DNA of 64,000 nt, from NCBI RefSeq assembly GCF_016806835.2, contig NZ_CP086111.1, positions 4,891,471 to 4,955,470 on the forward strand, written 5' to 3'. Numbering within the stretch: position 1 is the stretch's first letter; every line of letters starts with the position of its first letter. Shown piece by piece: positions 1 through 11,107 of this stretch. Source of the stretch: Skermanella rosea. GTDB lineage: Bacteria; Pseudomonadota; Alphaproteobacteria; Azospirillales; Azospirillaceae. Below the pieces are notes generated by a model. The model ran no database searches, was not told where the DNA came from, and saw only the letters and a program-made list of their open reading frames with translations. The position numbers and the translations under genes are program-made.

Positions 1-3000
1 CGGTTCGACGTGCCCGGATTTTCCGACGTGCTGTCATAACGGATGGCGGCGATGGTGTCCTGGATGTTCTGGGCCGTCGCGGTCGCGCCGAAGGTGATGG
101 TCCAGGCGGTGCCGCCGGTCACGCTGCTGGCCGTGACGGTGCCGATGGCGGTGGTGCCCGAGCGCAGGTCGGTGCCGGAGACGTTGATGCCGGTGTCGGT
201 GCCGGTCAGCAGCGACAGCCGGTCCGTGGCTTCCGCGTTGGCGGTGATCTGCACCGCCAGCACTGAGAAGCCGGGCGACCCGGCCTCCGTCACCGTGGCG
301 CTGCCGGCGATGGCGGCGGCGGTGCCGTTCTCGGTGTAGGCGTGGGCCGACGTGTCGGTGATGCCGACCGTCGGGACGGCGGTGTCGAGCGTCATGGTGA
401 GCGAGCCGCCCGCCGTGCCCACGTTGCCGGCCTGGTCGGTCACGCGCGCGGTCAGCGTCTTCGCCACGCTCCCCCCCAGCGCGCCGTCCGCCAGCGTGAA
501 CTCGTAATAGCCGTTGGAGATGTCCGTGCCGGACAGCGTGCGCGTGACCGGCGTGCCGAAGGGGTTCCCGCCCAGCAGCAGCTCCAGCGTGTCGTTCTCG
601 ACCGCGCTGGTGCCGGCCAGCGACACCCGGAAGGTCGGCGTGGTGTCGTTGGTCACGTCGTCGCTGCTCGAACCGCCGGTGTCGCTGCCGGCCGTCAGGT
701 CGATGGTGGTGGTGGGCGCGCCGGGCGCGGTATTGTCGAGGGTGTAGGTCTGGCCGGAGATGAAGCCGCCGACGATGGCGGTGCCCCCGTTCGCGATGCC
801 AGTGCCCGAGGCGTTCAGATCGAGCCGGATCGTCCCGTCCCCGGTGATGTTCGTCACCTGGACGGTCCAGGTCGTGCCGCTGCCGGCCGGCGTGCCGATG
901 GTGCCGGTCGCGTTGCCGGTGGCGGTCAGCGTGAAGTCGGTCGCGTCCACCCCCGTCACCGGCTGGCTGAAGGTGACGGTGAAGGTCACGGCGTCGGCGT
1001 TGGTGAGAGCCCCGGACGGCGTGGTGCGGTTGATCGTAGCCACAGTGGGGGCGTTCACCACCGACACGGTGGTGTCGGTGTTGGGGCTGGCGGCAACGCC
1101 GCCGTTGGCGGTGCCGTCGCCGTCGTTCACCACGAAACGCACCGTGCGGTCGCCCGCGGTGGGCGTGCCGGCGCTGTTCTGGTAGGTGATGTTCTGGATC
1201 AGCGCCGCGATGGCCGCGGGCGTGGCGTTGGCGGTGGTGAAGGTGATGGCCAGGGCCGTGGACCCGGTGCCGCCGGTGTAGGTGCCGATGGCGGCGCCCC
1301 CATAGGTGACGGTGCCGCCCGATGCGCCGATCTGGCCGGTGCCGGTGCCCTGGTTGCGGATCGCCAGCACCTCGCTCGTCCCGTCCTGGAGCCCGGCCGC
1401 GATCGACACGGTCAGGCTGCCGCCGTTGAAGTCGGCGGCACCATCCGGGTCGGTGACGCCGGCCGCCGGGGCCTGGTCGATCACCACGGCCGATCCGCCG
1501 CCCACGAACGTCACCGAGTCGCCCGCGAGCGTGTTGATCGCCGGCTGGTCGTTCACAGCGGTTACGGTGACCGACAGGCTCTGGCTCAGGCTGTTGCTGC
1601 CGCCATTGGCGGTGCCGCCGTTGTCCGCCACGGTGAAGGTGACGTTGCCGGTGCCGCTGGCGTTGGCCACCGTCCGGTACGTCAGGCCCTGGAGGTCGGC
1701 GAGGCTGAGCGTGCCGTTGGCGTTGACCTGCGTTCCACCGTTCCACAGGGTGATGAAGGACGGGATGCCGGTGACGGTGTAGGTCGGCGTCTGCCCGCTC
1801 TCGTCCGCGCCGCCGCCCGGCCCGTACGTCACCGCGCCCAGACCCAGCGTGGTGCCGCTGCTGTTGGAGCTGTCCTCGTTGACGGTGATCGCGCTCAGCG
1901 TGCCGGCCGTCAGGACCGGCGCGTCGTTGACCGGATCGATCGTGACGTTGACGGTGATGGTGTCGGTGCCGCCCTGGCCGTCGGATACCTGGACCGTGAA
2001 GCTGTCGGAGCCGCTGAAGTTGGCGTTCGGCGTGTAGGTGATGGCCTTGGAGGCGCCGGTGCCGGTGGCCCCTGCGGTTCCGTTCGACGCCGCCGAGGAG
2101 ATCGACCACGTCAGTGCCGATCCCGCCTGCTCGTTGTCCGAGGCGTTGAGCGTCAGGCTGAAGGCGGTTGGGCTGCCGTCCTCCGACATGGTGACGGCCT
2201 GGGGACCGGCGCCTTCGGTGATGGTGGGCGGGGTGTTGGGGGCGGCAATGTTGACCGTGAACGTCCCGGCGCTGGCATTGGCGGTCACCGCGTTGCCGGC
2301 GGTGTCGGTCACTTCGCTGCCGACGATGGCAATGGTGTAGGTGCCGTTGTCGGCGGAATCCCAGGACCCGCCCGGCGGGATGACCGTGTAGGTGGCAGTG
2401 CCGGAATTCCAGCTTGCGCCGGTAACGGTCAGCGTGCCGCCGCCGGCCTTGGTGACCGTGACGTCACTGGTGTCGATCGAGGACGAGTTGATGCCGACAT
2501 TATCGGAATAGGCGATGGTGAACTGGTAAGACGTGCCGCCGGATGTCGTGACGCTGGAGGCCGTGACTGTGCCGGCGGTGGGGGCGGTGGAGTCGGCTGC
2601 TCCGAAATTCACTGTCGTCGTCGCGACGGCACTGTCCGAGGCGTCAGATGCATAGATATTGATGGTTCGCGAGGAACCGGTCGGCGTACCAGCAGTATTG
2701 ATGTACGTGACGGCCGCAATGGCCGCCTGCATGTCGGCCACGCTGGCGCCCGACTTGCTGTATAGCCGCAGGGTTCCGGTCGAAGAGTCGTAAAGGACGG
2801 AGTTGATGTTGCTGTGGGTTCCCGTCAGCGACAGGCTTTCCGATGCGCCATCCTGAATGTTCGAGATGGTAATGACCGCACTGCGCACATTGGTGTCGCC
2901 GGAAAGTGACCCGATCGACACGTTGTTGCCGACGACAACGCCGCCCGACACGTAGGTCGTCGCGTAATTGTTGCCGCCCGTGCTGCCATCGAGGTCGAGC

Positions 3001-4922
3001 GTGCGCGCCGCAGCATATTCATAGGCACCGCGATCGACGTTGGTGCTGACCGTGCGCGGATTGAGCAAGGCGTCCAAACTGGCGTTCGGCGAGGGGGAAG
3101 TGGCCGATCCCGCATCGATGGCGGACGCCCCGGAGGCAAGGCGGAGATCGCGGTTGGAACCCGAACCGACATTGACGAAAAGGCCGCTCGTGCTTCCCGT
3201 GGTCACATTGGTCTGATTGATCGTTGCGGAACCGCCACTTGAGACGTAGGTTCCGAGATCCGCACCGCTCGCCGCCGAATTGCCGACAACGATCGAGTCG
3301 TAAAGGTTGATCACCGTAGTATTGGTGGACGCACTAGAGTAGATGCCACCAGCGTTTCCGGTTGCGGTGTTTCCGACGACCGTTAGATTGTAATAATTGT
3401 GAGTCCCGGCGGCAACTCGAAGGGCTCCGCCACCCTGGGCGCCAGCCCCGGTCGACGTATTATTATAGAACACACTGTTGCTTATGGTCCCCCCGACGGT
3501 TGAACTAAATGAGCCCGCACCACCGAAGCCGGCGGAGCTGTTCGAATGGAAGACGCTCCGGTCGATTGAATAGCTGGCGGCACCGGAGATCCCGATCACT
3601 CCTCCCTGGTGATTGGCAGCGGTGGCTGAATTGTTGTAGAAAAGGGAATCCGAAATCGTAACAGAACCGCCTACTGCGGCGGTTACATGCCGAATGACCG
3701 TTGCAGCGGTGACGACGGAACTTGAAAAATTTCTGAACTCAACACTTAAGAGGGTTACGTCGACATTGTTGGTTGAAACGACGTTGATACCCGTTTTGCT
3801 GTTCCCGTTGATGATCACGTCGGGAATGTCGTCGCCGTTGACATCGCCGTCGATTGTAAGGTCGACGGTGAGGTTTGGAAGATTGGCGTTCAGCGTGATC
3901 GTGCGTTCCGCCACGGTCCTCGTCGCCGGGTTGAACAGCGTGGCATCAAAGCCGATCGTCTTGGCCGTCGTCGTGCCGCCGGCGGCGATGGCGTCGGCGT
4001 AGGCCTTTTCGAACGTGCCCGCCCCGGTGCCGCCGACAATACTTGTCACCGTGTAGTCGGCCAGCGAACCCGTGAATGCGTCAAGCGCCGCCGCGGTGAA
4101 CACGGAAGAGTCGGCGACCGAGCCGCTGGTCGCTTCAAGAATCCAGTTGGCCCCCTGGACGGCTAGGCCTGTGACGTCCTTGGAGGCGGCGATGTCAGCG
4201 CCGGTGATGGCGTGCAACCGATTGATGAAAGCCAGCCCTTCGGCGCTCTCCGCGATCTGGCACCCGTAAAACAGGATGTCGCCGTCAGAATTGAGGGAGG
4301 CGCCCAAAGCCTGCAACTCGGCTTCGTACCGATCCAACGAGCCGTCCCAAAGAAAGTCCGTGCCGATGTAGAGCTGGGCGTCCCAACCATGGCTGACGAC
4401 ATGGATGGCGTCGTAACCAGTGTGAGTCCGTGACCATTCCGCCATCTGCGCGAGACCGCTCTTGGTCCCATCCAGCAGCACCACCTCCACGCCCGCGCTT
4501 ACGCCGTCGGCCAACACCTGCCAGTCGGCAACGCTGGTGTCGATGAATGCAACCTCCGTCCGTCCGCCGTTGGTCGTCGCGTCCGCTTCACGAATCACTT
4601 GATAGCCATTCCCGGACGCTTGAGCGGTCGGTATGGGAGTCCCGCCCGACTCGGCCGCCTGCGCCGCCGCGTCTAGAAGCTGCTGGTCCACCGGCTGCTC
4701 GGCGGCATCGAACAGCGGATCGGCGCCTGCATCCTGCGCCGCCGCATCGACCGCCGTCGCCACACCCGCCGCGTCGAACATGAAGCGCGGTTCCAGCGCC
4801 AGGGCCATGCTGGCCGCCGGTTGTCCAGCCCGGAGCGCGCCATCGGCAGTTTCGCTCTTCAACCGGTCGAGCAGCCTGCGGAAACCGGCACGTTCCTGGC
4901 GGCGGATCAGATCGTCGGGCAT
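1..4922 (-). CDS. Giant DUF4347 / beta-helix / cadherin-like surface protein, C-terminus outside window
   Basis: Open frame of at least 1640 residues running off the left edge. It starts at the ATG at 4922 (MPDDLIRRQE); no strong ribosome site is visible. Residues ~40-55 hold the LEPRFMFDAA motif typical of these adhesins. Residues ~95-265 resemble DUF4347 (HVVSHG, then ILFYGCQIAES and TGADIAASKD). Residues ~270-640 are rich in Asn, Ser and Gly in the pattern of a right-handed beta-helix. After that come repeated Ig/cadherin-like blocks with Asp-rich linkers (SDGQGGTDTITVNV, VTDQAGN). The part at about 2640-4470 is clearly more AT-rich than the rest, which suggests a mosaic origin. Proteins of this type are large secreted adhesins, often exported by type I secretion (known for the family); the C-terminal secretion signal is not in view. 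The family assignment is good, the ligand is unknown. Confidence 0.85.
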   Translation of the reverse strand, partial: MPDDLIRRQERAGFRRLLDRLKSETADGALRAGQPAASMALALEPRFMFDAAGVATAVDAAAQDAGADPLFDAAEQPVDQQLLDAAAQAAESGGTPIPTAQASGNGYQVIREADATTNGGRTEVAFIDTSVADWQVLADGVSAGVEVVLLDGTKSGLAQMAEWSRTHTGYDAIHVVSHGWDAQLYIGTDFLWDGSLDRYEAELQALGASLNSDGDILFYGCQIAESAEGLAFINRLHAITGADIAASKDVTGLAVQGANWILEATSGSVADSSVFTAAALDAFTGSLADYTVTSIVGGTGAGTFEKAYADAIAAGGTTTAKTIGFDATLFNPATRTVAERTITLNANLPNLTVDLTIDGDVNGDDIPDVIINGNSKTGINVVSTNNVDVTLLSVEFRNFSSSVVTAATVIRHVTAAVGGSVTISDSLFYNNSATAANHQGGVIGISGAASYSIDRSVFHSNSSAGFGGAGSFSSTVGGTISNSVFYNNTSTGAGAQGGGALRVAAGTHNYYNLTVVGNTATGNAGGIYSSASTNTTVINLYDSIVVGNSAASGADLGTYVSSGGSATINQTNVTTGSTSGLFVNVGSGSNRDLRLASGASAIDAGSATSPSPNASLDALLNPRTVSTNVDRGAYEYAAARTLDLDGSTGGNNYATTYVSGGVVVGNNVSIGSLSGDTNVRSAVITISNIQDGASESLSLTGTHSNINSVLYDSSTGTLRLYSKSGASVADMQAAIAAVTYINTAGTPTGSSRTINIYASDASDSAVATTTVNFGAADSTAPTAGTVTASSVTTSGGTSYQFTIAYSDNVGINSSSIDTSDVTVTKAGGGTLTVTGASWNSGTATYTVIPPGGSWDSADNGTYTIAIVGSEVTDTAGNAVTANASAGTFTVNIAAPNTPPTITEGAGPQAVTMSEDGSPTAFSLTLNASDNEQAGSALTWSISSAASNGTAGATGTGASKAITYTPNANFSGSDSFTVQVSDGQGGTDTITVNVTIDPVNDAPVLTAGTLSAITVNEDSSNSSGTTLGLGAVTYGPGGGADESGQTPTYTVTGIPSFITLWNGGTQVNANGTLSLADLQGLTYRTVANASGTGNVTFTVADNGGTANGGSNSLSQSLSVTVTAVNDQPAINTLAGDSVTFVGGGSAVVIDQAPAAGVTDPDGAADFNGGSLTVSIAAGLQDGTSEVLAIRNQGTGTGQIGASGGTVTYGGAAIGTYTGGTGSTALAITFTTANATPAAIAALIQNITYQNSAGTPTAGDRTVRFVVNDGDGTANGGVAASPNTDTTVSVVNAPTVATINRTTPSGALTNADAVTFTVTFSQPVTGVDATDFTLTATGNATGTIGTPAGSGTTWTVQVTNITGDGTIRLDLNASGTGIANGGTAIVGGFISGQTYTLDNTAPGAPTTTIDLTAGSDTGGSSSDDVTNDTTPTFRVSLAGTSAVENDTLELLLGGNPFGTPVTRTLSGTDISNGYYEFTLADGALGGSVAKTLTARVTDQAGNVGTAGGSLTMTLDTAVPTVGITDTSAHAYTENGTAAAIAGSATVTEAGSPGFSVLAVQITANAEATDRLSLLTGTDTGINVSGTDLRSGTTAIGTVTASSVTGGTAWTITFGATATAQNIQDTIAAIRYDSTSENPGTSN

Positions 4923-5152
4923 GATGGCGGTGTCCCTGGGCAGCACAGATTTGGTTACGTTTCCACCGTGTCGGCGGAAGCGGTACGCTTTTCGCGTTAC
5001 GTCGAAAGCGTATAATGCCCGTTCTTGTGTGTTGAATCAACCAACCTCAGCCCGACGGTTGCATTGGCAACACACATGGGTCGGCCTTGGCCGTAGGGCG
5101 AACCTTGACCTACCGGCAAACCCCGGATTTCGCGTCGGGCGAGTACCGCCCT

Positions 5153-5226: not shown

Positions 5227-5466
5227 ATGCAACCCGCTTCGCGGCATGTCCGCCTTTTCCGGAATGGCCGGAATCAGGCGGTCAGAATACCAGTCGAGTT
5301 TGAACTGCCCGGCGACGAGGCCATCATGCACCGTGACGGCAACAGGCTGGTTCTTGAACCAGTGCCGAGGCATGGACTTCTCGCCCTTCTCGCCACATGG
5401 GAACCTTTGGACGAAGAGTTTCCCGAGGTCACCGACGAACCGGTGAAACCCGAGGACGTATTTTGA
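5227..5466 (+). CDS. vapB: AbrB/VapB-type antitoxin
   Basis: 79 residues. The N-terminus (SRHVRLFRNGRNQAVRIP) matches the swapped-hairpin AbrB/SpoVT DNA-binding fold of VapB antitoxins: short strand, NGRNQAVR turn, then EF.LPG.E. The acidic C-terminus (WEPLDEEFPEVTDEPVKPEDVF) is the usual toxin-neutralising tail. A TGAGGTG ribosome site precedes the ATG. The stop TGA overlaps the probable TTG start of the toxin, so the two are translationally coupled. A palindrome just upstream fits autorepression by the complex. Confidence 0.82.
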   Translation: MQPASRHVRLFRNGRNQAVRIPVEFELPGDEAIMHRDGNRLVLEPVPRHGLLALLATWEPLDEEFPEVTDEPVKPEDVF

Positions 5467-5870
5467 CCGCACCCCTGTACATGCTCGACACGAACATCGT
5501 TTCCGACCTGATCAGGAACCCGGCCGGCAAAGCCGCCCATCGCATCATGTCGGTTGGCGACAAGGCCCTCTGCACAAGCATCGTCGTCGCGGGGGAGCTT
5601 CGATACGGTTGTGCAAGAAAGTCTTCGCCCAAGTTGACCCGGAAGGTCGACGAAATCCTGAGCGTGATACCGGTGCTGCCATTCGACGTGCCGGCCGATG
5701 CCGACTACGGCAGAATAAGGTGCGAGTTGGAGCAGGCCGGCCTGTCGATCGGGGGGAACGACCTGCTGATCGCCGCACATGCGATGGTGCTTGGGCTGAC
5801 CCTGGTTACCGCCAATACACGGGAATTCTCGCGGGTATCGGGCCTGCGGGTTGAGAACTGGCTGGAATGA
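5463..5870 (+). CDS. vapC: VapC-type PIN-domain ribonuclease toxin
   Basis: PIN-domain endoribonuclease of about 135 residues, FitB/VapC type. The acidic metal-binding residues are all in place: Asp in MLDTNIVSDL, Glu in VAGELRYG, Asp in GGNDLLIAAHA, and the TANTREF motif near the end. VapC toxins cleave tRNA or rRNA (family knowledge). I take the TTG at 5463 as start because it overlaps the antitoxin stop; the ATG at 5481, giving MLDTNIV, is the alternative. A longer in-frame extension back to 5397 would run through the antitoxin gene and is unlikely. Confidence 0.85.
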   Translation: MTAPLYMLDTNIVSDLIRNPAGKAAHRIMSVGDKALCTSIVVAGELRYGCARKSSPKLTRKVDEILSVIPVLPFDVPADADYGRIRCELEQAGLSIGGNDLLIAAHAMVLGLTLVTANTREFSRVSGLRVENWLE

Positions 5871-5919: not shown

Positions 5920-6009
5920 GTAGTTGCGCCCATGGCGCAACACACCGCATCCACGCCCGCCGGCCGCCGCAGCGCCGGTGCGGCTGTTGCGCCATGGGCG
6001 CAACCTACG
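5920..6009. repeat. BIME-like repeat, copy A (paired REP units)
   Basis: A ~90-bp unit made of two inverted REP-like ends: TTGCGCCCATGGCGCAA near 5923-5940 and GTTGCGCCATGGGCGCAA near 5986-6002, around a ~45-bp GC-rich spacer. Each end is itself an imperfect palindrome. A near-identical unit follows at 6052-6142. Confidence 0.8.
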
Positions 6010-6051
6010 ACGCCAGCGCCGATGCGGCTACGACTCGGGCCGGTATCACCG

Positions 6052-6142
6052 GTAGGTTGCGCCCATGGCGCAACACAGCGCGTCCGCGCCCGCCGGTCGC
6101 CGCAGCGCCGGTGCGGCTGTTGCGCCATGGGCGCAACCTACC
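6052..6142. repeat. BIME-like repeat, copy B, overlapping the RAYT stop codon
   Basis: Second copy of the ~90-bp unit, with GTAGGTTGCGCCCATGGCGC at the left end and its inverted partner at 6118-6142. The spacer is almost identical to copy A. The TAG stop of the RAYT gene (6138-6140) lies within the last REP end. Confidence 0.8.
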
Positions 6143-6605
6143 GGCGGTGGATGCTTGAGTAGGGCCAATCGTTGGGGTCGGATACCAGGCCGTGCTTGAC
6201 CGGGTTCCAATGGATGTATGCCATGCAATGCTCGTGATCGGCATCGTCGCGGATCCGGTGCTCCCAGAAACGGCGCTGCCAAACCGCCTGCTCGTTGCGT
6301 CTCGTCCGGGCACCCGGCGGGTCGGGACGTAGATGCGGGGGAAGCAGAGCGGTAAAGCGGCCCTTGATCGCGCCCCACCGCGTGGAATAGTCCGAATCGC
6401 CCGCCGGCAACGTCCATATCATGTGCAAATGGTCCGGCAGGACGACGCTTGCCTCGATTCGGAACGGACGGTGGCTCTTCACGATGCGGAAAGCCGCGCG
6501 CAGCCAGCCGACCGTCGCCGGATCATCGAACAGCGGTCGCCGCCCATAGGTCACCACGGTGAAGAAGTACGACCCGCCCGGGGTCCGATCGCGCCGGTAT
6601 TCCAT
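6138..6605 (-). CDS. REP-associated tyrosine transposase (RAYT, Y1/IS200-like)
   Basis: About 155 residues from MEYRRDRTPGG. RAYTs are single-strand nucleases that process REP sequences (family knowledge). Visible hallmarks: GGSYFFTVVTYGRRPLF at the start, VLPDHLHMIWTLP carrying the HxH-like metal site, WGAIKGRF, VWQRRFWEHRIRDDADHEHC, and a closing YIHWNPVKHGLV..P.DWPYSS. The catalytic Tyr is most likely within YIHWNPVKHG. An ATG at 6626 would add seven residues. REP ends lie both after the gene (5920-6142) and before it (6664-6689), the layout expected for a RAYT and its own repeats. Confidence 0.88.
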   Translation of the reverse strand: MEYRRDRTPGGSYFFTVVTYGRRPLFDDPATVGWLRAAFRIVKSHRPFRIEASVVLPDHLHMIWTLPAGDSDYSTRWGAIKGRFTALLPPHLRPDPPGARTRRNEQAVWQRRFWEHRIRDDADHEHCMAYIHWNPVKHGLVSDPNDWPYSSIHRR

Positions 6606-6663
6606 GCCGGCGGCATAGCACGCCATCGCATGCCGGCCACCGCGACACCTTCGCCTCGGGTTC

Positions 6664-6689
6664 GTAGGGTGCGCCCATAGTGCAACATC
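6664..6689. repeat. Degenerate REP end upstream of the RAYT gene
   Basis: GTAGGGTGCGCCCATAGTGC, followed by AACAT, is a diverged copy of the REP ends at 5920 and 6052. It sits on the 5' side of the RAYT gene, so REP-type sequence brackets the transposase. Confidence 0.6.
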
Positions 6690-6741
6690 ATGCACCCGCG
6701 GCCGGTCCCGGCGGACGATCACGAGGACCGGCCGTTCCGCG

Positions 6742-7041
6742 TCAGGCGAACTCCGCCAGGTATTGCTGGATCGGCTTGGTGCAGGCGACCGGGATCAGGG
6801 GGACATAGGAAATCTCCCGCCCGTCCTCGCTCGTCAGGTGGTAGATGCCCGGGGAAAGCCGCTCCTCCGACGGATTGGCAAAGGTCAGGGTGAACGGGAT
6901 ATTGGCGGTTTCAAGATCCTCCTCCCCCTCCCTGATGCGGATCAACCGCAATTCCACCGGCCGCGGGATCGCCGCGGCGGTGAAAACATTGCCCACCTGT
7001 TTCTTGAAATAATCGATATCGACCGGATCCCAACCACTCAT
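6742..7041 (-). CDS. DUF6916-like small protein A
   Basis: 99 residues from the ATG at 7041 (MSGWDPVDIDYFKKQVGNVF). This is the same length as the paralogue at 9152-9451 and shares its layout: F..QVGN.F....IPRPVELRLIRI, then IPFTLTFANPSEERLSPGIY and a C-terminal ..PI..YLAEF. It looks like an all-beta cytoplasmic protein without signal peptide or membrane segment. I connect it to DUF6916 from memory; the function is unknown. An upstream TTG at 7080 is in frame but falls in the putative operator, so I prefer the ATG. It belongs with the tail-collar gene at 7504 and the two other DUF6916-like genes. Confidence 0.75.
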   Translation of the reverse strand: MSGWDPVDIDYFKKQVGNVFTAAAIPRPVELRLIRIREGEEDLETANIPFTLTFANPSEERLSPGIYHLTSEDGREISYVPLIPVACTKPIQQYLAEFA

Positions 7042-7062
7042 CGAAGCTACCCAATCGGCGTT

Positions 7063-7080
7063 TTGGTCAAAGCTGACCAA
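7063..7080. promoter_or_regulatory. Palindromic operator candidate before DUF6916-like gene A
   Basis: TTGGTCA, spacer AAGC, TGACCAA: perfect 7-bp arms. It lies just downstream of the promoter proposed at 7085-7114, where a repressor would cover the transcription start. Confidence 0.45.
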
Positions 7081-7084
7081 TGTA

Positions 7085-7114
7085 CCTATATCGAATGGAC
7101 TAATCTTTCGTTAA
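7085..7114 (-). promoter_or_regulatory. Sigma-70-like promoter candidate for DUF6916-like gene A
   Basis: Read on the minus strand: TTAACG (7114-7109), 18 bases, then TATAGG (7090-7085), 44 bases before the ATG at 7041. Element quality is moderate. The rest of 7115-7503, before the tail-collar gene, shows no convincing gene. Confidence 0.4.
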
Positions 7115-7503
7115 GGGCCCGGGCCGCTGCGACCCGGAATGCCGACGGATGCCGCCCGAGCGCTTCCGAGTCGAGGCATCCCCCCTCTCCGGCGGCCACA
7201 CCTCGCCGGTTCCATCTCTCCCGCACCCTGCGGACCGGCATACCACCGTACCTTGGATTGGTCGTAAAGCTCCGCATACCTCTCGAAAAGCGCATAGTGC
7301 GATATCGATTCATCCATCGAGTGTTTTTGTCAATGCAATCCGCGCGGGATTTCGGGTAGCCATGGCTGAGGTCCTAAGCCTTTCGGACGAACCGAAGCAA
7401 ATCCGGTTCTTCGATGGTCCAGGGCCGAGCGGGGGAAACGGCGGCCCCCCGCGGGGGTAGCCCCGGAATGTTTCGCCATCGCACCAGGAAGGAAGAGTCG
7501 AAG

Positions 7504-8133
7504 ATGTCCGATCCGTATTTGGGCACGATCATGCCGGTCGCGTTCCAGTTCGCCCCGCAGGACTGGTCCACGTGTCAGGGGCAGAACTATCAGGTCAGCC
7601 AGTACAGCGCCCTGTATTCGCTGCTCGGCAACACCTTCGGCGGCAACGGCAGCCAGAACTTCAATCTGCCGGACCTGACGGGCCGGACCATCATCGGCCA
7701 GGGCATTCTGAGCCTCAATGGCGTGAACACCCCGTACAACACCGGCGTCAAGGGCGGGTCCGTCACCGCGACGCTGACCACGGCCAACGTTCCGCTGGCG
7801 GCGCATACCCATCCGGTGAGCGGGACGGCCTCCGGTTCGGTGACCATCAACGGGACCCAGGGTCCGGCGACCGAAGCCGGGCCGAGCACCGGCAACGTGC
7901 TGGCGACCGCCAGCTACGAGGACCCCGGCACCTTTGCCGTCAGCCCCGTCAAGATCTACGGCCCGGCCAGCGGCGGTGCCGCAGCCCCCATCGGCACCGG
8001 CACCGTTTCTCTCAGCGGCGTGACGGTTGGCGCCAACACCCCGACCGGCGCGACGCCGTTCAACATCCGGGAGCCCTACCTGCCCCTGTACTACATCATC
8101 GCGATCAACGGTCTCTATCCGACCCGTCCGTGA
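7504..8133 (+). CDS. Phage tail collar-domain (microcystin-dependent/Mdp-like) protein
   Basis: 209 residues from the ATG at 7504, behind AGGAAGGAAGAG. The N-terminus MSDPYLGTIMPVAFQFAPQD followed by W.TC.GQ....QYSALYSLLG is the Tail_Collar/MdpB signature, with NFNLPDLTGR.IIGQG completing the domain. The middle (residues ~85-185) is Gly/Thr/Ser-rich beta structure with HTHPVSG-like sequence, and it ends in EPYLPLYYIIAINGLYP. Such proteins exist in phage tails but also as free-standing bacterial genes of unknown role. No other phage gene is nearby, so this is not a prophage remnant. It sits among three DUF6916-like genes and a GNAT gene. Confidence 0.88.
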   Translation: MSDPYLGTIMPVAFQFAPQDWSTCQGQNYQVSQYSALYSLLGNTFGGNGSQNFNLPDLTGRTIIGQGILSLNGVNTPYNTGVKGGSVTATLTTANVPLAAHTHPVSGTASGSVTINGTQGPATEAGPSTGNVLATASYEDPGTFAVSPVKIYGPASGGAAAPIGTGTVSLSGVTVGANTPTGATPFNIREPYLPLYYIIAINGLYPTRP

Positions 8134-8186
8134 TCCGACGTTGCCGGGCCGCCGCTCTCCGTGGGGACGCGGCGGCCCGGAAGCGC

Positions 8187-8516
8187 TCAGTTGAAGGCCA
8201 CGTGGTAGCCCATGCCGTTCTCCTCCCGGTCGGGCGTCAGGCTCGGGATGATGTGGAAGCCGAGGACTCCCGTGCCCTCCGCCTCGACCTCGTAGAACCC
8301 TTCCACCAGCAGCGGATCGGCCGGCCCGCGGAACTGGAGCGTCAGCGGCTTGCGGAACCTGGGGTGCGACGCCCCCTTGCTGGGATCATAGGCGCCGGTC
8401 AGCCGCAGCTTGAAGTCGGGCGGCACGTCCGGGTGGAGGATCGAGAACTCCTTGCCGATCCACGGCGTGAAAACCTCCAGGGTGAAGATGTCGGGAGCGG
8501 CGGTCGCTTCGGTCAT
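8187..8516 (-). CDS. DUF6916-like small protein B
   Basis: 109 residues from the ATG at 8516 (MTEATAAPDIFTLEVFTPWI). It has the family layout F....F......FKLRL, LTLQFRGPADPLLVEGFYEV and a C-terminal GFHIIPSL....GMGYHVAFN. It is convergent with the tail-collar gene (stops ~53 bp apart) and divergent from the GNAT gene at 8614. The interval to GNAT carries an inverted repeat and an AT-rich TATAAT-like box readable on the minus strand at 8551-8556. It is the most diverged of the three paralogues. Function unknown. Confidence 0.75.
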   Translation of the reverse strand: MTEATAAPDIFTLEVFTPWIGKEFSILHPDVPPDFKLRLTGAYDPSKGASHPRFRKPLTLQFRGPADPLLVEGFYEVEAEGTGVLGFHIIPSLTPDREENGMGYHVAFN

Positions 8517-8529
8517 GTCATGGCTCTTT

Positions 8530-8549
8530 CCGGAAGTGTAACGTTCCGG
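8530..8549. promoter_or_regulatory. Inverted repeat in the DUF6916-like B / GNAT divergent promoter region
   Basis: CCGGAA, 8 bases, TTCCGG, directly beside a TATAAT-like box (8551-8556, minus) and TATACT (8553-8558, plus). It could serve one or both divergent genes. Confidence 0.35.
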
Positions 8550-8613
8550 CATTATACTCCGGACGGCCTATGACTCCAGCTTTCCGACTTACCTCCTCCA
8601 GAAGGCGTTCCGC

Positions 8614-9165
8614 ATGATCCGCGACGGCGACCGCATCCTGACCACCCGGCCCGGGTTGACCCTGCGGCCCGAGCATCCGGACGACGAGGCGCTCCTCTTC
8701 CGCATCTTCGTCGCGTCCAAGGCGCTGGATTTCGACGACATGCCCATGCCGCAGCACCAGAAGGATTTCCTGCTGCGCCAGCTGCATGTCTCGCAGCTCT
8801 ACAATTGGCGGCATCTTTACCCGGACCTGGAGCAGTGGATCATCGAATGCGACGGCGAGCCGGTCGGCCGCCTGATCTTCTCCAACCCGCCGGACCAGAT
8901 CCTGCTCCACGACCTCGCGATGCTGCCGGGGCGCAAGGGCGTGGGCGGCGGCCGGATCGTGATCAGGGACGTGATCTTCGCCGAGGCGGTCCGCTGCGGG
9001 AAGGTCGCGCGGGCCTCCGTGGCGCCCCACAATCCGGCGCGCAGGCTCTATGCCCGGCTGGGCGTGACCGAGCTTCCGATGACGCCCGACTCGCCGATGA
9101 TCCCGCTGGAATGGCTGCCCCCGGCGCTGCGCCGGCCGGCCTCCGCGCCCGTCAGTTGTGGATGA
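8614..9165 (+). CDS. GNAT-family N-acetyltransferase
   Basis: 183 residues. GNAT features: an N-terminal LRPEHPDDEALLFRIF strand-helix; strands around WIIECDGEPVGRLIF and ILLHDLAMLPGRKGVGGGR, where LPGRKGVGGGR corresponds to the acetyl-CoA pyrophosphate loop (Q/RxxGxG/A); and ASVAPHNPARRLYARLG, the usual motif B. GNAT enzymes move an acetyl group to an amine; the substrate here is unknown. The last 14 bases overlap tail-to-tail with DUF6916-like gene C, so the gene belongs physically to the tail-collar module. Confidence 0.85.
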   Translation: MIRDGDRILTTRPGLTLRPEHPDDEALLFRIFVASKALDFDDMPMPQHQKDFLLRQLHVSQLYNWRHLYPDLEQWIIECDGEPVGRLIFSNPPDQILLHDLAMLPGRKGVGGGRIVIRDVIFAEAVRCGKVARASVAPHNPARRLYARLGVTELPMTPDSPMIPLEWLPPALRRPASAPVSCG

Positions 9166-9451
9166 TCTGGTATTCCTGCATCGGTCCGCTGGACTGGATC
9201 GGCGCCATGAAGACCTGCCGGAACTCCCGCCCGCTCTCGCTCTTGAAATCGTAGGTGCCTTCCAGCAGCAGCGTGTCGCGCGGGCTGGCGAAGATCAGCG
9301 AGAAGGGAATGCGGAAATCGCGGAGCGTCGGCACGCCTTCCTTCAGGCGGATCAGCTTGATCCTGACCGGCTTGGGCACGGTATCCACCCAGAACATGTT
9401 GCCGACCTCGCTTCGGAAGGTCTCGACCGTCAGCGACCCGAATACCACCAT
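9152..9451 (-). CDS. DUF6916-like small protein C
   Basis: 99 residues, clearly paralogous to protein A: F.SEVGN.FWVDTVPKPVRIKLIRLKEG, IPFSLIFASPRDTLLLEGTY, and C-terminal APIQSSGPMQEYQIIHN. No signal peptide or membrane segment. Its end overlaps the GNAT stop region by 14 bp in convergent orientation. Upstream, minus-strand TAATACT and a GGAG box precede the ATG. Function unknown. The intergenic stretch 9452-9594 holds no gene. Confidence 0.75.
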   Translation of the reverse strand: MVVFGSLTVETFRSEVGNMFWVDTVPKPVRIKLIRLKEGVPTLRDFRIPFSLIFASPRDTLLLEGTYDFKSESGREFRQVFMAPIQSSGPMQEYQIIHN

Positions 9452-9613: not shown

Positions 9614-11107
9614 CTAGTCTATCAACAGATCTTTTGCCGGAGAGCTACGCCCTCGCACATTGTTGCGAAACGGGCGTAGCCTCTGGCAAAAGTGATGGGT
9701 CCAGCCGGCTTGGATTTGGGATAGCCGTCCCAGCCGCCCAAACGGGCGATAAACCATGCGGCCCAAGCCAGCGTGTCGGGCGGATGTGGGTTTTTGCGGG
9801 CGGCGGTGCGGCCTTCCAGACGTGGTTGTAGGGCGATCAGGACGCTGACCTGCTGTGCGGAGAAAGTGTCGTCGATCGGGCGAACCAGGACGCCGTCGCG
9901 AACGCCGAGCAGTTGCAGGATGTGCGTGGCGGCGACCAGGGCGACGAAAGCCAGCCGCTGAAGGGCGTCGGCGCTTTCGACCTGGCTCGACTCGATATCC
10001 AGCCCCTGCGTCTTGAGAGTACGGAAAAGCTGCTCGATGGTCCAGCGCCGCCGGTACCAAAGCACGATTTCCAAGGCTTTTGCGGTGTCCTCGACCTGAT
10101 GTGTCGTCAGCAGCCGCCAATGTACCGGGTCTTCTCCGGCGGGGGCGTCCACTTCGCGAACATCGACCATTCGAAGGGCGAGCGCCGGTGCGGCGCCGGG
10201 GTGTGTCCCGTTCCTGGGCCGTTTCACCGCGACCGCGCCGTAGCGCAGTTCCAGGGTCGCCGTGCGGGCCGAGCGCTTGCCGGGGCGTTCGGGAAGGTCC
10301 AGCGTGAAGCGCTCCGCCACCGCCAGCGCGTCGCTCCAGGCGTATAAGTAGCCGCCTCCGGCCAGCGCCCTGTCGCGGCAGGCCCGCGTCAGAAGATCGA
10401 AACCCGTTTCCGGCAGCCGCTCCCATTCCTCGTAGATGTCGCTTTCGCGGTCGGCGACGACCGTGACGTGCCGGGCCGTATCGAGATAGTGCTTGGCTGT
10501 CTGCGCGCCCTCCAGCCAGCGCATCGATTCCTTGCTCTCGATCGGCAGAGCCCGACGGTGCTTGGCCGCGGTTTCATGACGGGCGTAGACCTGCGCTCCG
10601 ACAAGTCCCAGACAAGCTCCGCTTTCGGCCTCGACCGCCAGCACCGGATGGACGAACAGCCCGGCGTCCCGGCCATTGCCCACGGTGCCCAGGCCCCGCG
10701 TTCGTCCGGCATGGGCCTGATAGTTCAATTCGCTGGTGTCCTGGATGGCCAGAACATGCAGGCCGACGACGCGCGCCCGCATCTGCTCGCCGATCGTGCA
10801 TTCCATTTCCACCAGTCTTACCTTGGCATTGTTCAGCCAACGCCCGAAGCGAGCCTCTTCGATCCGGTCGTTCGACAAACGCCGAATGCGGACGGTCGAG
10901 CGCTCGACCATCCTTTGCAGCAGTTGCCGCCCCCTTTTTTCAGCCGTTCATCGTTGAAACGGCCGACGATATCAACCTGAATGTCCATTCGTGACGCCCT
11001 CCGCCTGAGAACGTCACGAACAGAATCACATCCCCGCCAAACTACGCAACTACAGCGACAAACCCGAGTCAACCTGCCGCACCTAAAAAGATCTGTTGAT
11101 AGATTAG
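9614..11107 (-). mobile_element. IS4-family insertion sequence, 1494 bp
   Basis: The ends are 22-bp inverted repeats with one mismatch: 9614-9635 and 11086-11107, sharing the 17-bp core CTATCAACAGATCTTTT. They are flanked by identical 11-bp duplications. Inside is one transposase gene that needs a -1 frameshift. The element sits in the loop of the terminator downstream of the catalase gene and is oriented like that gene. Intact ends and a perfect duplication point to a recent insertion. Confidence 0.92.
9622..10988 (-). CDS. IS4-family transposase, expressed via -1 frameshift
   Basis: DDE transposase. The main frame (10911-9622, 429 residues) has Asp in LAIQDTSELNY, Asp in VVADRESDIYEEW, and YRRRWTIEQLFRTLK, an exact YREK motif (Y-x2-R-x3-E-x6-K). 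The natural N-terminus lies upstream in another frame: ATG at 10988 behind GGAGGG, giving MDIQVDIVGRFNDERLKK. The frames join by a -1 shift at the A6 run (10940-10935), where AAA AAA is re-read as AGG. The downstream frame has a TGA at 10950-10948, so it cannot be extended upstream without the shift. The shift may be programmed, transcriptional slippage, or a mutation; translation from the ATG at 10911 alone would lose the N-terminus. Confidence 0.85.

Follow-up and report, generated by a model that had tools for sequence, protein, structure and literature searches.

A conserved cassette of free-standing tail-collar, GNAT and DUF6916 genes at a locus of Skermanella rosea

The five-gene locus

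Here we analysed a stretch of 64,000 nucleotides from Skermanella rosea (contig NZ_CP086111.1, positions 4,891,471 to 4,955,470), called the window below, in which five open reading frames at 6742-9451 encode a free-standing tail-collar protein of phage type, a GNAT acetyltransferase and three small DUF6916 proteins, A, B and C. An original prediction made from the letters of this DNA had described the same module, and its gene calls held up: the frames are open in the order A (-), collar (+), B (-), GNAT (+) and C (-), all five proteins exceed the curated Pfam cut-offs, including the collar and the three DUF6916 proteins for which a search with hidden Markov models (HMMs) had been proposed as a check, and the tail-to-tail overlap of the GNAT gene with gene C is there, measuring 14 bp (9152-9165). 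The features are as follows.

6742-7041, minus strand: gene A, DUF6916 protein of 99 amino acids from the ATG at 7041 (Pfam DUF6916, 1.3e-11, 44.9 bits against a cut-off of 27)
7504-8133, plus strand: free-standing tail-collar protein of 209 amino acids (Pfam Collar, PF07484, 7.9e-25, 87 bits against a cut-off of 24)
8187-8516, minus strand: gene B, DUF6916 protein of 109 amino acids (Pfam DUF6916, 5.4e-13, 49.3 bits against a cut-off of 27)
8517-8613, no strand: divergent intergenic region between gene B and the GNAT gene, from the alignment within the genus
8614-9165, plus strand: GNAT acetyltransferase of a cassette-tied subfamily, 183 amino acids (Pfam Acetyltransf_1, PF00583, 2.9e-8, 34.4 bits against 20.7; profile search of 299 genomes)
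9152-9451, minus strand: gene C, DUF6916 protein of 99 amino acids (Pfam DUF6916, PF21880, 5.7e-16, 58.8 bits against a cut-off of 27)

Gene A has an alternative start at a TTG at 7080 (112 amino acids, frame 6742-7080); the relatives favour the ATG at 7041, and orthologues of the gene are present in the genus relatives G377, G378 and G379. The collar ATG is preceded by AGGAAGGAAG, and residues 101-103 of the protein form an HxH motif. The NCBIfam scan gave nothing over cut-off for the five proteins, none of six proteins matched the PADLOC anti-phage defence models, and among the PHROGs the collar matched tail families and the GNAT one acetyltransferase family weakly (0.0011). The genome (7.76 Mb, 7 contigs) has a single collar, three DUF6916 and a single DUF4347 protein, all inside about 5.4 kb. 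No match to Phage_sheath_1 or Baseplate_J was found genome-wide at E <= 0.001 in searches whose positive controls matched, in keeping with the earlier remark that no other phage gene accompanies the collar; a search for tail-tube genes matched in no control and carries no information on them.

Conserved association of the three families

Joint recurrence of the families in other genomes had been set beforehand as the test of the module. Regions of 14 kb, where the contig allowed, were fetched around 37 DUF6916 matches in the phylum sample of 299 genomes, found in 35 genomes other than that of the window, and around 60 from the order. Their frames were searched for collar, GNAT and DUF6916 with HMMs that were started from annotated loci together with the window and then iterated. 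One large genus (g156) is heavily represented in the order set, to which four genomes contribute two loci each; the sets do not include two DUF6916-bearing genomes (G300 and G304) or a further match in G332. All three families stood at one locus in 31/37 regions of the phylum set and 55/60 of the order set, and in 0/20 control regions, the controls coming from genomes that carry the gene set.

Over the whole 299 genomes the collar was present in 35/36 genomes with DUF6916 and 37/263 others (Fisher 2.5e-24), and the GNAT, at E <= 1.3e-22, in 33/36 and 8/263 respectively (Fisher 6.8e-33), these tests, like the other Fisher and binomial tests of this study, ignoring kinship. The GNAT profile includes rows from the genome itself and from three of the 299 (G197, G170, G223), and its cut-off was chosen after viewing the match list, which drops steeply at this point (42 matches in 41 of the 299 genomes). 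Read by eye, 38 of the 42 matches have a collar no more than about 3.2 kb away, the exceptions being those in G186, G071, G121 and G111. In G071 (G071:C1:4977708-4978180) the GNAT lies in two frames, and the genome has DUF6916 without a match to the collar, which may mark a decayed cassette. At 68 loci the distances of GNAT, DUF6916 and collar are also correlated (Mantel 0.42-0.61; null maximum 0.21).

Collar-bearing genomes in which Pfam detects no DUF6916 were also sampled. The loci examined came from 20 of the 37 such genomes, and of these 20 loci three had all three families, two had collar and GNAT, and 15 had the collar only, so that collars also exist outside the cassette. Among named genomes, the best 80 of 581 confirmed collar loci comprised 29 with all three families, six with collar and GNAT, one with collar and DUF6916, and 44 with the collar only; the complete loci include members from Sphingomonas, Pseudomonas, Stenotrophomonas, Caulobacter, Paraburkholderia and Nocardioides, and also from Chloroflexi, Pirellulaceae, Verrucomicrobiales and one Flavobacterium. 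Collar, GNAT and DUF6916 are hence a real conserved cassette that extends to other phyla. In the literature searched we found neither a description of this set nor the name DUF6916, which agrees with the original prediction that knew of no described function; what that prediction had seen is borne out and was too small, missing both the wide recurrence and the giant DUF4347 gene that runs leftwards from 4946.

Layouts and the order of collar trios

The cassette takes typical forms, with either three tandem collars and one DUF6916 gene, or a single longer collar or a pair of them, in many cases next to a giant gene. Three tandem collars is the commonest collar number in the phylum set (20/37 loci), and median collar length is 212 and 223 amino acids at one- and two-collar loci against 179 in the trios. 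Three copies of a small fold around one collar, as found in the window, had been read as the plan of the module; this turned out to be a peculiarity of the genus, and since the commonest layout has three collars with one DUF6916 gene, an accessory role for DUF6916 is more likely than that of main subunit. Trio, GNAT gene and a small convergent gene occur on named plasmids of Aminobacter, Ruegeria TM1040, Pontibrevibacter and Rhizobium bangladeshense, the small gene being DUF6916 by HMM in the first three. On an Azospirillum oryzae plasmid (L136, 56-10470) and at similar loci the trio and GNAT lie amid genes of lasso-peptide type, for B2, PqqD, asparagine synthase, an HPr-kinase-like protein and JmjC/2-oxoglutarate oxygenases, and in Deinococcus ficus (L137, 7081-8241) a periplasmic-binding-protein gene separates the trio from the GNAT gene.

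The order of the collars within the trios is conserved. When best matches were taken outside the own locus and below 70% identity, 239 of 282 trio collars matched a collar at the same trio position (94 expected). Ten loci of other phyla (Actinomycetota, Chloroflexota, Acidobacteriota, Bacteroidota with one, and Deinococcota), hand-picked and with phyla assigned by hand, gave 27/30 same-position best matches against 71 loci taken as Pseudomonadota, another 13 trio loci, considered Bacteroidota, being outside this comparison. The identity permutation was found in 1575/2455 trio pairs with GNAT and 62/252 pairs without it, the order signal being weaker in the latter. As the order is kept, the trio collars are probably three non-interchangeable subunits of one ordered or heteromeric assembly.

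A giant protein of DUF4347 type lay within 5 kb at 28/41 one-collar and 18/24 two-collar GNAT loci (46/65 together) and at 4/73 GNAT loci with three or more collars, where other large repeat proteins (PKD, choice-of-anchor D, Ig or YDG) may be near. Of the giants beside collar loci, which form a cluster of 60, 33 were scanned, and 27 of these carry DUF4347. The giant of the window, whose gene starts at 4946 (-), 2.6 kb left of the collar gene, is the following feature.

1-4946, minus strand: N-terminal part of a giant DUF4347/Ig/cadherin-repeat protein, from domain scans of a frame of 1891 amino acids

This frame carries DUF4347, Ig-like and cadherin-like domains and reaches window position -729. 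A second frame of 8580 amino acids, of which the scanned 4464 carry PATR repeats, overlaps it, and the split of the giant into two frames (G000:C1:4865122-4896416) is either a true frame change or an assembly error. Downstream of the giant and on the same strand follow genes for an outer-membrane efflux protein (OEP), whose TolC-family match is below the cut-off of that family, and then for an adaptor of the HlyD_3/RND type.

The collar protein

The HxH motif was found in 311/314 collars of GNAT loci, 35/35 of loci with a formyltransferase-family gene and 86/91 of the rest, H101 being invariant and H103 nearly so in 56 aligned rows. In phage fibre tips, histidines of this kind bind a metal on the axis of the trimer. 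The title of the T4 paper speaks of a 'knitted trimeric metal-binding fold'. The single-chain model of the collar (predicted local distance difference test, pLDDT, 77; predicted template modelling score, pTM, 0.52) matched T4 gp12, the gp37 tip and the fibre of cyanophage A-1(L) in Foldseek, and the profile search matched gp12 and the cyanophage fibre.

Within the genus we compared the window with relatives G377, G378, G379 and G376, the genes compared differing between them. Identity to the window was 66-69% for the collar and 59-64% for its part after residue 65, as against 75-95% for the GNAT and 81-98% for gene C. After residue 65 the nonsynonymous rate (dN) was 0.28-0.31 and the synonymous rate (dS) 0.47-0.52 against the four relatives, giving dN/dS values of about 0.55-0.64, higher than those that the same comparisons gave for A, B, GNAT and C; the C-terminal part of the collar is under relaxed or diversifying change. 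Between the window and G377, dS was 0.46-0.75 for A, collar and B and 0.16-0.18 for GNAT and C, and this higher divergence of the first three genes suggests that the collar side may have been exchanged by recombination.

Stand-alone collar proteins, often called 'microcystin-dependent', are widespread in bacteria, and the literature searched gives no worked-out function for them. Excerpts of two reports place relatives by family in protein samples: the marine exoproteome of Ruegeria pomeroyi DSS-3 with Synechococcus contained a collar protein (PMC4949626), and a soil metaproteome includes proteins of COG4675 (PMC5579227).

The DUF6916 proteins

The paralogy of A, B and C, for which an alignment had been proposed as the check, is borne out by 18 invariant columns. 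In a tree of 101 columns, whose bootstrap had not settled, A and C are sisters (99/88) within a clade that includes two gammaproteobacterial proteins, and B falls in another clade, grouping with the DUF6916 protein of a locus (L108) from the same family as the window, in which that gene likewise lies between collar and GNAT. The AlphaFold model of gene C (pLDDT 91.5, pTM 0.82) has an N-terminal helix and six strands. Weak Foldseek matches of this fold included a phage tail terminator, lambda gpV and VgrS, those in BFVD included several head-tail joining proteins, none at E <= 0.001, and by sequence there was no credible match in the PDB (best 0.58), so a resemblance to tail tubes is suggestive only.

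The GNAT and the question of acylation

The GNAT of the window has a predicted acetyl-CoA site with conserved motif residues, G111, G113 and Y146 being invariant in 16 rows; in this genus the first motif place, usually R or Q, has a G. Among solved structures, a profile search puts general GNATs and N-terminal acetyltransferases closest to the protein, and two of its relatives show sub-threshold RimI matches. Acetylation of collar lysines was considered and rejected: the best lysine column has 21% of letters in 56 rows, and 73/314 collars of GNAT loci are lysine-free. With no conserved lysine in the collar or DUF6916 alignments, the N-terminus would be the likeliest site, should the collar be the acylated protein. 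At collar position 2, S, A, G or T stands in 157/239 proteins of GNAT loci against 37/94 elsewhere (Fisher 1.4e-5, kinship again ignored), namely 23/62 with neither enzyme and 14/32 with a formyltransferase, and this pattern, which favours excision of the methionine, leans towards an N-terminal substrate of the GNAT.

A formyltransferase-family gene lies within 5 kb of 16 collar loci, in none of which a GNAT was present. Among the best 80 of 581 named loci, 34 had only the GNAT, 13 only the formyltransferase, one both and 32 neither (Fisher 0.0024, phylogeny being a confounder), the formyltransferase frame of the sole double locus (L248) lying 5.3 kb away. These formyltransferase loci without GNAT hint at amine capping as a shared need of collar loci, phylogeny again confounding. 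Loci of the formyltransferase kind without GNAT include L142, L221, L224, L253 and L258, and many collar loci taken as Bacteroidota also carry a gene of the Peripla_BP_6 type.

A proposed host-owned fibre-tip cassette and its alternatives

Taking these results together, we propose, tentatively and with slightly less than even confidence, that the five genes represent one version of a widespread cassette owned by the host. It comprises one to three collars, a dedicated GNAT and DUF6916, and would make an oligomeric surface or secreted tail-fibre tip with its own acyltransferase and a DUF6916 helper. The collars would adopt the fold seen at the tip of phage short tail fibres, most likely as a metal-binding trimer, which would reach the cell surface or the medium and stick to some target. 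Three-collar loci would supply non-interchangeable subunits, probably to an ordered or heteromeric assembly, and the single longer collar of the window would probably be a homotrimer working with the neighbouring DUF4347 giant, a putative adhesin for whose export the efflux-type genes behind it may serve. The GNAT would acylate an amine of the assembly, the collar N-terminus being the likeliest, and DUF6916 may be a small beta-barrel helper, as assembly chaperone or adaptor. The assembled particle or surface appendage of the original prediction survives here in the tail-fibre-tip features and in the adjoining adhesin-like giant with export-type genes; DUF6916 as its main subunit does not.

Several observations weigh against this proposal. 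The surface location of the products is itself a point that we infer: no signal peptide was seen on the collar by eye, no predictor having been run, and the pTM of the collar model is only moderate. The identities of genes A (49-79%) and B (65-87%) vary as strongly as that of the collar. In the PDB, Foldseek found nothing significant for DUF6916, the T1 stopper-tail terminator being best at E 0.095. Collars are frequent without their supposed partners, since 34/72 collar-bearing genomes lack the GNAT at E <= 1.3e-22 and the collar-only loci are the largest class among the best 80 of 581 named loci. DUF4347 occurs in 85/299 genomes and the giant adjoins the collars only sometimes, because of which we consider it a frequent neighbour and not a fixed part. 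The adaptor behind it scores best as an RND-type adaptor and no ABC ATPase or inner-membrane pump was found in the scanned frames beside it, a genome-wide search not having been made, so that export of the giant by the adjoining genes is unproven.

Other readings have to be weighed against the same data. That the window holds a decayed prophage or tailocin scrap with one fibre gene left seems hardly credible. The collar does belong to a phage tail-fibre family and is matched by 245 phage records, a transposase adjoins the set and a transposase gene of another kind lies between set and giant; however, the DUF6916 and GNAT queries found no match in phage records, the GNAT having only its single weak PHROG match, DUF6916 was absent from PHROGs (0/36 members) and confirmed viral contigs, sheath and baseplate were not found in the genome, and the frames are open, with dN well below dS for gene C and GNAT. 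It is also disfavoured by the many lineages in which the cassette is conserved and tail genes are lacking. Scarcely better placed, and still very unlikely, is a pair of GNAT and DUF6916 that acts like a toxin-antitoxin system and merely rides beside collars. GNAT toxins exist, and the two genes are adjacent and convergent in 59/131 loci, 43 of these less than 100 bp apart; yet tandem pairs, the order that one operon would need, number only 42/131, PADLOC gave no match, and at the six collar and GNAT loci among the best 80 of 581 the GNAT accompanies collars with no DUF6916 detected.

We consider it quite unlikely that the collars belong to a pathway modifying lasso-like ribosomally synthesized and post-translationally modified peptides (RiPPs) in which the GNAT is a tailoring enzyme. 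An asparagine-synthase-like gene does lie within 5 kb of 24/205 collar loci (22 with GNAT, 23 with three collars) and of none of the controls, with PqqD-like genes at 20 and B2-like genes at five of the 205, and the synthase plus either at 19, but 181/205 loci, the window among them, have no synthase, and a precursor peptide was not identified; in the surroundings of the window neither asparagine-synthase-like nor PqqD-like or B2-like genes were seen. Somewhat more room, although it too is unlikely, must be given to a GNAT acting on a glycan or small molecule, with a cassette that builds a decorated surface layer. The collars are poor in lysines, and the 16 loci with a formyltransferase-family gene and no GNAT would suit this reading, as enzymes of that family can act on sugars; against it, no glycosyltransferase was found among the annotated neighbour families, a weak argument given that most of the 30 neighbour clusters listed are unannotated.

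The fibre-tip cassette that we favour could also be put in a far bolder form, which we regard as doubtful: a new class of surface machine in which a phage-derived, shaftless fibre tip would in many lineages be an ordered three-collar hetero-oligomer, its N-terminal amines acetylated by the GNAT or, where a lineage has a formyltransferase in its place, formylated, and a DUF6916 beta-barrel descended from tail tubes would join it to an exported giant adhesin.

Relation to known systems

The nearest known relatives share single parts with the cassette. The window collar resembles phage gp12 (PF07484, COG4675, 'microcystin-dependent protein') in its collar domain and HxH motif, in matching gp12 and the A-1(L) fibre by both fold and profile, and in matching the gp37 tip by fold; unlike gp12, it is free-standing, shaftless and accompanied by GNAT and DUF6916. 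Tailocins, extracellular contractile injection systems and the type VI secretion system are likewise host-owned phage-tail parts, whereas the window genome has no Phage_sheath_1 or Baseplate_J match. Giant adhesins with an N-terminal DUF4347 are neighbours in the window and at many one- and two-collar loci, with OEP and HlyD-type genes in the window genome, and in the literature searched a collar, GNAT or DUF6916 is not described as a member of their loci.

RhiB of Rhizobium leguminosarum is a bacterial protein of the COG4675 or collar-domain kind (PMC6969944, PMC13133039, in excerpt), encoded in the quorum-sensing regulated operon rhiABC that the excerpts link to the rhizosphere and nodulation (PMC13133039, PMC6969944, PMC4149787). 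The excerpted accounts describe rhiABC(D) together with rhiI and rhiR, and neither a GNAT nor DUF6916 is named in them, which sets RhiB apart by description. Its operon neighbour RhiA served as a cytoplasmic marker and was not found in the supernatant according to an excerpt of PMC2275737, a reason for caution in taking every product of such loci to be secreted. Defined partners (one acyltransferase subfamily and DUF6916), an ordered trio and a link to giant adhesins make the orphan collar family a testable system, for which plant-associated and marine laboratory bacteria exist.

Proposed promoter palindromes and flanking genes

The palindromes proposed at the promoters stood in part. CCGGAA-N8-TTCCGG at 8530-8549, between gene B and the GNAT gene, has 0.48 expected occurrences per 64 kb if up to one mismatch is allowed; its TTCCGGAA half is conserved in 5/5 aligned genomes of the genus and the other half is not, an ATTATA in the same intergenic region being conserved in 4/5. 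Upstream of gene A, GGCCCGGGCC is not conserved in two aligned relatives. As regulatory signals the palindromes are weak.

Between the giant and the cassette lie a VapBC-like toxin-antitoxin pair (5227-5870, beside the start of the giant) and the gene of a REP-associated tyrosine transposase (RAYT, 6138-6722), near which a near-identical pair of 86-bp repeats at 5923-6141 is able to form long hairpins. The right flank of the cassette is occupied by a DDE transposase gene (9622-10911), followed by a catalase gene.

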